Made by a program: the position numbers and the translations under genes. A stretch of DNA of 64,000 nucleotides from NCBI RefSeq assembly GCF_900107965.1, contig NZ_FNVU01000005.1, forward strand, positions 372,001 to 436,000. The letters run 5' to 3'. Below the pieces are notes generated by a model. That model was given only the letters and a program-made list of their open reading frames with translations. It was not told the DNA's origin and searched no databases. The DNA is from Actinacidiphila yanglinensis. Lineage in GTDB: Bacteria; Actinomycetota; Actinomycetes; Streptomycetales; Streptomycetaceae. Shown here piece after piece: positions 58,869 to 64,000 of the stretch (its first letter is position 1; each line of letters opens with the position of its first letter).

Positions 58869-59330
58869 TCAGTCCAGGCAGAACTCGTTGCCCTCGGGGT
58901 CGGTCATCACGAGGAAGCCGGCGCTCATCGGCGGCGCGGGCTCGTGGCGGCGCACCCGGGTCGCGCCCAGCGCGACGAGCCGGTCGCACGCGGCCTCCAG
59001 CGCCGCCATCCGCTCCTCCCCCGCGAGTCCGGGAGCCGCGCGGACGTCGAGGTGCACCCGGTTCTTGGCGACCTTGCCCTCCGGCACCCGCTGGAAGAAG
59101 ATCCGGGGGCCGCGACCCTCCGGGTCCTCGACGGCCGACCCCGCGTTGCGCTCCTCCTCCGGCACGCCCGCCCGATCGAGGAACGCGTCCCACGCGGCCA
59201 GCGGGTCGGCTCCCTCGGGCAGGTCGACACCGGGCGGGCCGGGGTGGACGTAGCCGAGCGCCTCGCGCCAGAAGGACGACAGCGCCTGCGGGTCGTGGGC
59301 GTCGAAGGTGACCTGGATCTCGCGGCTCAC
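58869..59330 (-). CDS. VOC/glyoxalase-like protein
   Basis: 153 residues: VQVTFDAHDPQALSSFWREA-like opening (here IQVTFDAHDPQALSSFWREA), PRIFFQRVPEGKVAKNRVHL, and FLVMTDPEGNEFCLD at the end, the pattern of streptomycete glyoxalase-superfamily proteins with a VOC fold. Substrate unknown. GTG 59330 overlaps the DinB stop (GTGA) and follows GGAGG, so the two genes are coupled. Confidence 0.88.
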   Translation of the reverse strand: MSREIQVTFDAHDPQALSSFWREALGYVHPGPPGVDLPEGADPLAAWDAFLDRAGVPEEERNAGSAVEDPEGRGPRIFFQRVPEGKVAKNRVHLDVRAAPGLAGEERMAALEAACDRLVALGATRVRRHEPAPPMSAGFLVMTDPEGNEFCLD

Positions 59331-59969
59331 CGGATTCCTCCGCTCGTGGGGGCGTGCGCCTGGTGCCGGTAGAGGTCGCGCAGCAGGCAGACCTCGGACA
59401 GATGGTGGATCAGCTCGCGGTGGATGTGCAGCACCAGGTCGGCCATGGGCGCGTCGGGGAAGGGCTCCTCCGCCCCCACCGGGACCCGCAGCCCCTCGTC
59501 GCCGAGCCGGGCCACCCCCGCGAGCCACAGGTCGAGTTGGGCCTCCAGCTGGCCGAGCGCGGCGTCCGCGCCGCCGGCGTACTCCCAGGTGGCGGGTGAC
59601 GCCGCCGGTGCGCCGAAGTGCGCGGCGTTGCGCGCGGCCAGCACGCCGGCGACGACGTGGCCGAGCCGCCAGGCGATCGGTGGTGAAGGGCGCCGGCACC
59701 GAGCCGGGGTACGCGTCGTCCAGGAGGAAGTCGCCGGCCCCGAGCTGTCGTGGCCGCCCCGTGCCTTCGCCGCCGCCGGAGCGACCCCGCGCCGTGGGAT
59801 TCCCCGGGGGAGCGCCCTCGCGCCGCCGTACACTCCAGGCGTCCGGCACCGGGGACCAGAAGTACTCGTCGTCGGTGAGGCCGGCGAGCCGTGCGCGGAG
59901 CTGATGGTTCCAGTGGAACTCCCACTGCTCGCGCAGTGCCCGGTTCCAGTCCACTCCTGTCGTGCCCAT
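59327..59969 (-). pseudogene. DinB-family protein gene with a single-base frameshift
   Basis: The first half (GTTGVDWNRALREQWEFHWN, LTDDEYFWSPVPDAWSVRRR) and second half (IAWRLGHVVAGVLAARNAAH, LHIHRELIHHLSEVCLLRDL) of one DinB protein lie in different frames. They meet near 59676-59682, where removing one base from CACCGATCGCC restores TTIAWRLG. The span is 643 bp, one more than a multiple of three. The unshifted frame runs on through the VOC gene and would give a 366-residue product. Either a real mutation or a sequence error. DinB proteins of this kind are metal-binding four-helix bundles, some of them thiol transferases. Confidence 0.8.
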
Positions 59970-60060: not shown

Positions 60061-60083
60061 TTGACCCTCGACCCGGTCGAGGG
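60061..60083 (+). promoter_or_regulatory. MerR-type promoter dyad
   Basis: TTGACC is followed by the perfect dyad CCCTCGAC-CCG-GTCGAGGG, the usual layout of a MerR operator in an overlong spacer. It lies directly before the MerR/clamp gene, so autoregulation is likely. Confidence 0.6.
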
Positions 60084-60110
60084 AGGAGATTCACGCGAGT
60101 GGAGAGCGGG

Positions 60111-61232
60111 ATGCGCAGTATCGGCGAGATGGCGCGGGACAGCGGCCTGGGCGTGAGCGCCCTAAGGTTCTACGACGGCGCGGGCGTGCTGGTCCCCGCG
60201 CGGGTGGACCCGGCCAGCGGGTACCGCTGGTACGGCCCCGGGCAGCTCGCCGAGGCGCGGCTGCTGGCGCGGCTGCGCCGGACCGGCATGCCGCTGGCGG
60301 ACGTCCGGCTGGTGCTCGCCGCGTGGTCCGGCGCGGACACCGACCTGGTACGGACGCTGCTCGACGCGCACCTGCGCCGTCTCGAACGCGGGCTGTCCGA
60401 GGCCCGCGCCGCGCTCTCCACGGTCCGCGCACTTCTCGAACACCGGGAGAACCCCATGACGTCATTCCGCACCCCGACCGTGAGTCTCACGGTCGCCGCC
60501 GACGAGCTGGCCGCGGCGCTGGACGCGGTCCGCTTCGCCGCCAGCACCGACCCCGAACTGCCGGTGCTCGGCGGTGTGCTCTTCGACACCGAGGACGACG
60601 CGCTCCGGGTGGTGGCCACCGACCGCTACCGGATGGCCGTCGCCCGGGCCGGTGCGAGCGGGCACGACGGGCCGCGCGCGCAGTTCGTCGTGCCCGCGCC
60701 GGTCGCCGACGCGATGCGGGCGCTGCTCACCGGCAGCGGCGGCGGCGACGGGGGCGTCCGGCTCTCCGTCGCGGACGGCCGGGTGGTGCTGGAGGCGGGG
60801 GACCGCCAGGCGGCCGGCCGGTGCCTCGACCACGACTTCCCCGACTACCGCCGGCTCGCGGCCCTGCCGCCGGGGACGCGCACGCTCGTCGACGTCGCGG
60901 CCCTGCGCGCGGCGGTGCGCGGCGGACCGGTCCGCGCCGGCGACCCGGGCGAGGAGGGCGGCACCGCCCGCGATCTCAGCCTGCTCGAGATCACCGCCGA
61001 CGGCACCGTGGCCGTCGTGGACGAGGGGGACGGCGCCGGCAGGGACCGGATCGCGGTCGACCGCGACTACCTGCTGGACGCGCTGGACGCGCTGGCGGCC
61101 GGTACGCGGGAACGGCTGGTCGTGGAGTTCGGCGCCCCCACGGCGCCGATCGCGTTCCGCCGCGTCGACGAGGACGGGGCCGAGGAAGGGGACGCCTTCT
61201 CGCTGCTGATGCCGGTCCGCCTGGAGGACTGA
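60111..61232 (+). CDS. MerR-type DNA-binding domain fused to DNA polymerase III beta-clamp-like domains
   Basis: 373 residues. Residues 1-110: MerR winged helix and coiled coil (SIGEMARDSGLGVSALRFYD, YRWYGPGQLAEARLLARLRR, LRRLERGLSEARAALSTVRA). Residues 115-373: sequence like clamp domains 2 and 3 of DnaN: LPVLGGVLFDTEDDALRVVA, TDRYRMAVARA, DHDFPDYRRLAALPPGTRTL, IAVDRDYLLDALDALAAGTR, and the end LLMPVRLED matching the MPxRL C-terminus of DnaN. Clamp domain 1 is absent. ATG 60111 is used; GTG 60099 is also possible behind GGGAGGAG. Such fusions are known in Streptomyces annotations; their function is unclear. Confidence 0.88.
   Translation: MRSIGEMARDSGLGVSALRFYDGAGVLVPARVDPASGYRWYGPGQLAEARLLARLRRTGMPLADVRLVLAAWSGADTDLVRTLLDAHLRRLERGLSEARAALSTVRALLEHRENPMTSFRTPTVSLTVAADELAAALDAVRFAASTDPELPVLGGVLFDTEDDALRVVATDRYRMAVARAGASGHDGPRAQFVVPAPVADAMRALLTGSGGGDGGVRLSVADGRVVLEAGDRQAAGRCLDHDFPDYRRLAALPPGTRTLVDVAALRAAVRGGPVRAGDPGEEGGTARDLSLLEITADGTVAVVDEGDGAGRDRIAVDRDYLLDALDALAAGTRERLVVEFGAPTAPIAFRRVDEDGAEEGDAFSLLMPVRLED

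Positions 61233-61266: not shown

Positions 61267-64000
<2,734 letters not shown>

Follow-up and report, generated by a model that had tools for sequence, protein, structure and literature searches.

A MerR–DnaN fusion protein of Streptomyces and its relatives as a candidate sensor and decoy for clamp-pocket ligands

In the TipA system, one gene with two start codons gives rise to a long form, TipAL, which activates its own promoter upon thiopeptide binding, and to a short form, TipAS, which predominates and sequesters the drug (PMC7762955). The MerR-like antibiotic-binding protein AlbA is made as a full-length (AlbAL) and a short (AlbAS) in-frame product, the short form neutralizing the drug (PMC6078987). 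Among the ligands of the sliding clamp DnaN, griselimycin and mycoplanecin are made by actinomycetes and bind the clamp pocket; their producers carry a second dnaN (griR, mypR), for which a role in self-resistance has been proposed (PMC10817943). The window, a stretch of 64,000 nucleotides from Actinacidiphila yanglinensis, contains on its forward strand a single open frame of 373 amino acids (60111-61232) in which the DNA-binding domain of a MerR regulator is followed by a long helix and by domains II and III of DnaN. A literature search returned no description of a MerR–DnaN fusion and nothing on S. coelicolor SCO1180, which was considered as a possible homologue. The TipA/AlbA plan, taken together with the existence of natural pocket ligands whose producers hold a second dnaN, led us to propose that the protein works as a TipA-like, self-activating one-gene sensor and decoy for a ligand of the clamp pocket, with the half-clamp as ligand domain, a reading that we regard as fairly probable.

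Architecture of the fusion protein and its client pocket

The initial annotation had read a MerR winged helix and coiled coil into residues 1-110 and DnaN domains 2 and 3 into residues 115-373. Both readings held. MerR_1 was matched at residues 3-71 and a helix was modeled at residues 77-113; the clamp fold spans residues 121-371 and comprises domains II and III, and the motifs DFPDYRRL and MPVRL were both found in the protein. A missed stop codon or a frameshift between two genes was ruled out, because most of the homologues at 58 loci are full-length single frames, with few partial or broken ones. The MerR–DnaN fusion gene is thus confirmed as real. The coordinates of its features are given in Table 1, in which residues are counted from the ATG at 60111.

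The start codon was reassigned. The ATG at 60111, used in the first reading, has no ATG counterpart in 7 of 88 relatives. Four codons upstream, at 60099, GTG is found in 84 and ATG in 2 of the same 88 sequences, and we therefore take GTG 60099 as the probable true start. The -10-like hexamer lies so close to this codon that transcription would begin near it, and the full-length message is therefore probably leaderless.

Table 1. Features of the MerR–DnaN fusion locus, in window coordinates
Feature	Position	Strand	Basis or remark
-35 box TTGACC, own promoter	60061..60066	+	TTGAC kept in the group A alignment
Putative operator dyad within the promoter spacer, CCCTCGACC-C-GGTCGAGGG	60065..60083	+	9-nt arms, 1-nt gap
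-10-like hexamer GAGATT (family consensus CAGAGT)	60086..60091	+	conserved alignment, 19-bp spacer
Full-length MerR-clamp coding sequence	60099..61232	+	conserved GTG start, 377 aa, probably leaderless transcript
MerR winged-helix DNA-binding domain, residues 3-71	60117..60323	+	PF13411 (MerR_1), E 1.6e-11
Long dimerisation helix/coiled coil, residues 77-113	60339..60449	+	helix in AlphaFold2 model
Internal Shine-Dalgarno GGGAGAA (family aGGGAGAAc)	60445..60451	+	within codons R112-E113-N114
Predicted short isoform, clamp domains II-III, 258 aa	60456..61232	+	internal ATG, residue 116
Clamp domain II, residues 122-245	60474..60845	+	PF02767 (DnaN central domain) at residues 128-245, E 1.8e-18; fold match
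TDRYRM segment of the pocket, residues 170-175 (E. coli T172-L177)	60618..60635	+	no variation at T170 or R174 among 47 diverse homologues
FPDYRRL segment of the pocket, residues 243-249 (E. coli F241-V247)	60837..60857	+	P244 98% conserved, R247 invariant
Clamp domain III, residues 256-372	60876..61226	+	TIGR00663 to model end; superposes up to clamp residue 366
LMPVRL segment of the pocket, residues 366-371 (E. coli V361-L366)	61206..61223	+	M367 and P368 invariant

An AlphaFold2 model, computed from an alignment of 47 homologues, had a mean pLDDT of 90.2 and a pTM of 0.73, with pLDDT below 50 solely at residues 116-118, the linker from the helix to the clamp fold. Its top Foldseek matches were all sliding clamps, and superposition on DnaN with VIA-align placed residues 121-371 in the clamp fold, on residues 123-366 of the E. 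coli clamp (Z 25.9, rmsd 2.4 Å over 228 residues). Because the VIA-align match covers mainly residues 121-371, the MerR half was judged from Pfam and PDB sequence matches. TIGR00663 aligned residues 109-371 to model positions 110-367, i.e. to domains II and III, with a score of 84.8 bits, which is below its cut-off of 137.65. In both comparisons domain I is missing, as had been noticed at the outset; the genuine dnaN of the host is encoded elsewhere (G000:C20:200601-201371) and shows 32% identity to the fusion. E. coli L273, which we take to be a ring-contact residue, aligns to arginine in 27 of the 47 homologues, in a loose part of the alignment, and the ring contact thus looks lost as well, in agreement with the earlier expectation that no normal ring would form. 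Lacking domain I and scoring short of the DnaN cut-off, the fusion is in our judgment no functional clamp; its domain content and its promoter place it in the MerR family. Although we propose that it works like TipA, it is not a member of the TipA class, because the TipAS domain (PF07739) was absent from the Pfam matches up to an E value of 1 and the C-terminal part consists of clamp domains II-III. Purifying selection acts on both domains: dN/dS was 0.24-0.58 in the clamp part and, apart from a value of 0.38 in the closest pair, 0.17-0.32 in the MerR part.

The client pocket of the clamp lies between domains II and III, the part that had been noted as kept. Sixteen pocket positions were compared. 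T172, R152, P242, R246, V247 and M362 were taken from PMC3335792 and P363 from PMC7261172. The other positions are ones generally known from clamp–peptide structures. Fusion and host DnaN are identical at 14 of the 16 positions, compared to 58 of 215 (27%) elsewhere and to 7 of 16 between host and E. coli DnaN, figures that are to be read with the pocket being the best-conserved part of DnaN for other reasons too, and with host likeness reflecting in part a shared actinobacterial ancestry. The pocket is therefore retained, and it mirrors that of the host clamp. Among 47 diverse homologues of the fusion, conservation was 0.84 in pocket columns versus 0.61 in the rest (p 2.6e-5), and five of the eight invariant clamp residues fall in the pocket (L153, T170, R174, M367 and P368; p 2.8e-5). 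The clamp fold could instead be a mere scaffold for an unrelated ligand, its pocket being retained for folding; the pocket motifs double as structural cores in DnaN, and pocket positions 154, 177 and 360 vary within the family. We consider this improbable, given that the pocket is significantly more conserved than its surroundings and matches the host clamp, not that of E. coli. We share the initial suggestion that the clamp fold is used as a ligand domain; the ligand itself we infer from the systems described above.

Promoter, operator and internal start

All 88 sequences of the close set of relatives (group A) have TTGAC before Met1, at 50 nt in 81 of them and at 49-53 nt in the rest. Between this -35 box and the -10-like hexamer lies a dyad with fully (100%) complementary arms, a putative operator, whose pattern TTGACCCTC[GA]A is present in 87 of the 88 relatives. 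A dyad had been placed at 60061-60083 before; it is indeed there, with its true extent at 60065-60083, and the bases from 60061 to 60066 are the -35 box. A spacer of 19-20 bp with a dyad is a hallmark of MerR-regulated promoters (PMC9909328). The candidate promoter at 60061-60091 shows this arrangement, conserved, with a 19-bp spacer, and an ordinary sigma-70 promoter scan (16-18 nt pattern) gave no match. A terminator scan returned none. The sequence 5' of TTGACC differs among relatives whose promoter is conserved. A second set of 11 sequences (group B, L143-L155), whose C-terminus is of the 'TTLxMP' type, forms a divergent MerR-clamp subfamily in which the pocket and a promoter of autoregulated type are kept, the latter in its own version, TTGACCTTC[AG], in all 11 members. 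The two members of group B that were scanned both contained MerR_1 and PF02767.

With a 23-base operator pattern, which weak or half-site targets elsewhere could escape, the scan of the own genome at 0-1 mismatch returned one site, the promoter of the fusion gene. In each of 15 carrier genomes the operator precedes the fusion gene, at 0-1 mismatch in 14 and at 2 mismatches in G010, and the sole extra site at 0-1 mismatch, in G205, lies within an unrelated coding sequence. Nine non-carrier genomes had no operator at 0-1 mismatch. A 2-mismatch site in the non-carrier G048, considered as another target, was rejected as a deletion remnant of the fusion gene itself. The sole evident target of the regulator thus appears to be, essentially, its own gene, so that the effector would have to be the fusion protein itself. 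Regulation of neighboring genes was likewise discarded, no neighbor being common to the 58 loci.

A second translation start is predicted within the gene. Of the 88 group A sequences, 84 have ATG and 2 have GTG as the codon for residue 116, and a Shine-Dalgarno core stands just 5' of this codon in 87; two distant members have no start codon at this site. The Shine-Dalgarno sequence is written with rare codons, AGG at R112 (61 of 88), CTA at L108 (51 sequences) and CGA at R106. Synonymous constraint reaches its maximum at residues 105-112 (1.58 versus a mean of 0.43), where third-position GC drops from about 0.90 to 0.67. Predicted pairing with the anti-Shine-Dalgarno sequence amounted to -7.7 kcal/mol, versus a mean of -4.9 kcal/mol for synonymous-codon nulls, and none of 60 null sets reached it. 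When all in-frame starts were scanned, the one at residue 116 was best by energy in 55 of 88 sequences; other methionine-rich columns had hardly any Shine-Dalgarno (7, 60, 202 and 367) or weaker matches (152 and 175). The internal start is therefore strong, yet not the sole candidate in every sequence. Residue 293, with its AGG-rich codon (KL 2.81), was considered as the site of a further internal signal and dismissed, as the codon table gave no consistent pattern of Shine-Dalgarno plus start there.

The predicted product of the internal start, residues 116-373, corresponds exactly to the clamp fold, and the conserved Shine-Dalgarno and ATG would release the half-clamp as a separate protein. 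In the group B members viewed, no methionine aligned with M116; the short form thus appears to be a feature of group A, and a free decoy may not be general.

Operator and internal start both bear on the initial idea that the fusion, sitting on promoters, recruits clamp clients such as polymerases or repair factors to DNA. Client pocket and DNA-binding domain are both intact, as such a role would demand. At 0-1 mismatch, however, the operator is found essentially once per genome, at the fusion's own promoter, the neighboring genes are not conserved, and an internal start that drops the DNA-binding domain makes little sense for a recruiter. We consider recruitment very improbable and did not retain it.

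Occurrence, loss and genomic surroundings

The 58 homologous loci in our collection of genome contigs are nearly all from Streptomyces, most of them full length and mostly 62-73% identical. In the genus 10 of 35 genomes were carriers, and in the order 55 of the 246 that were sampled. Elsewhere in the class, other families have full-length copies that are more divergent (about 34-51%), and in the sample of the phylum full-length fusions occurred solely in the class of the source, Actinomycetes, the other matches listed being DnaN or MerR parts alone. Copies carried on plasmids are annotated as 'MerR family transcriptional regulator'. A phage or viral origin was considered and rejected, the matches being weak ones to the MerR part alone.

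Several copies are broken: one has two TGA codons (G138), one is in pieces (G148) and two have split frames (L069 and L071). At L187, in the G048 genome counted as a non-carrier, a deletion has left the conserved promoter directly in front of the 3' end of the clamp part. Because such broken copies exist, the gene is, to judge from these loci, dispensable and sometimes lost. At two loci of Streptomyces griseosporeus, L042 and L048, the copies have 97.7% identity along 1133 bases; the similarity sets in at the -35 box and ends with the stop codon. As it runs exactly between these limits, promoter and gene behave as a unit.

Across the 58 loci none of the neighboring genes is conserved, and no biosynthetic or efflux gene is held in common. 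In the window, the fusion is preceded by a DinB-superfamily-like gene on the reverse strand (59327-59969) that is split over two frames, with its start in one frame and its C-terminal part (59327-59644) in another, either a pseudogene or a sequencing error. Downstream lie a Fur-family regulator (PF01475) on the reverse strand (61267-61683) and, divergent from it, a catalase-peroxidase-like gene on the forward strand (61931-64000), an ordinary arrangement.

The half-clamp could also be an interference protein that, when induced, competes for the polymerase or other clients and so acts as a growth brake, not as a toxin decoy. With its intact pocket, the predicted free form would indeed compete with DnaN for clients. 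Against a brake of this kind stand the lack of a partner antidote or conserved neighbor and the accessory distribution with its broken copies, and we give it little credence compared to a sensor and decoy.

Some further proteins contain one of the two parts. In the genome of the window, another unusual fusion joins MerR to a protein phosphatase 2C domain (L002, G000:C29:107822; PF13672, E 1.6e-9), and L156 resembles it. In several relatives, extra DnaN-domain proteins, in open frames of 403-557 amino acids, were found at G012:C2, G013:C63, G019:C3, G022:C218, G002:C92 and G034:C2, some of them on small contigs that may be plasmids. None of them matched the query with the fusion at 1e-30, and MerR fusions of the present family are therefore unlikely among them.

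Proposed mechanism and comparison with known systems

Starting from anatomy, promoter, internal start signal and pocket as read from the sequence, we picture the circuit as follows. MerR regulators are dimers that activate transcription by distorting the DNA. The full-length dimer would sit on the operator in its own promoter, and a ligand of the clamp pocket, for instance an antibiotic of the griselimycin or mycoplanecin type or another clamp-binding inhibitor, would turn it into an activator. By way of the internal start, the single transcript would then yield some sensor and much free half-clamp. The free half-clamps would sequester the ligand and spare the true DnaN, and in the lack of domain I and of the ring contact they should not work as clamps themselves.

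The ligand could be a drug or a clamp-binding protein. If it is an antibiotic, a link drawn by analogy, the system would amount to target mimicry: the MerR regulator would carry a replica of the site at which a clamp antibiotic binds, detect the antibiotic with it and thereupon flood the cell with free half-clamps from the internal start, one gene being sensor, switch and antidote. This more specific version is plausible, and we put it forward tentatively. With the same anatomy, the signal could instead be a phage or host clamp-binding protein, such as a translesion polymerase factor with a clamp-binding motif, which the half-clamp would buffer and whose free amount the regulator would gauge. 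The pocket of true clamps binds short peptides (PMC7261172), it is conserved in the fusion family, and a complex of a clamp with the inhibitor protein Gp168 (7evp) was among the structural matches. With its patchy and scattered distribution and a layout of one gene that putatively regulates itself, the fusion is nevertheless closer to the drug-sensing TipA and AlbA than to a housekeeping circuit, and no common neighbor of any kind was seen at the 58 loci, which makes a protein signal rather unlikely.

To our knowledge, the MerR proteins reported to sense drugs do so through binding domains dedicated to that task (TipAS, GyrI-like, AlbAS). In the fusion, sensing would fall to a portion of an essential replication protein that includes the pocket targeted by clamp antibiotics. 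Clamp inhibitors are a class under study against tuberculosis. If the proposal of a sensor and decoy is true, many soil Streptomyces hold a standing answer to such inhibitors, and promoter plus gene would make a ready biosensor for new clamp-binding compounds. The fusion also offers a natural half-clamp with which pocket binding can be studied without the ring.

Of the known systems, DnaN itself shares with the fusion the fold and pocket of domains II-III; the fusion differs in having no domain I, in a ring contact that is apparently lost, in its score below the TIGR00663 cut-off and in being joined to a MerR half. GriR and MypR are, like the fusion, products of clamp-related extra genes, with a link to clamp inhibitors that is shown or proposed for them and that we suggest for the fusion. 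They are dnaN genes inside biosynthetic clusters, whereas the fusion is a regulator with a half-clamp and no common neighborhood: domain I is missing and the 58 loci have no conserved neighbors, so that it is not a complete second dnaN in a clamp-inhibitor cluster. AlbA is made from one frame as a long and a short protein, as we predict for the fusion; AlbAS, however, is a helical, tandem TipAS-like domain, whereas the fusion would carry a copy of part of its putative target. In the TipA class (TipAL/TipAS of Streptomyces lividans; SkgA), a MerR half precedes the ligand domain, the gene is autoregulated and a short isoform is made; the fusion has the MerR half and a putative ligand domain behind it, and from its sequence autoregulation and a short isoform are predicted for it. 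The ligand domain is TipAS (PF07739) in the TipA class and clamp domains II-III in the fusion.
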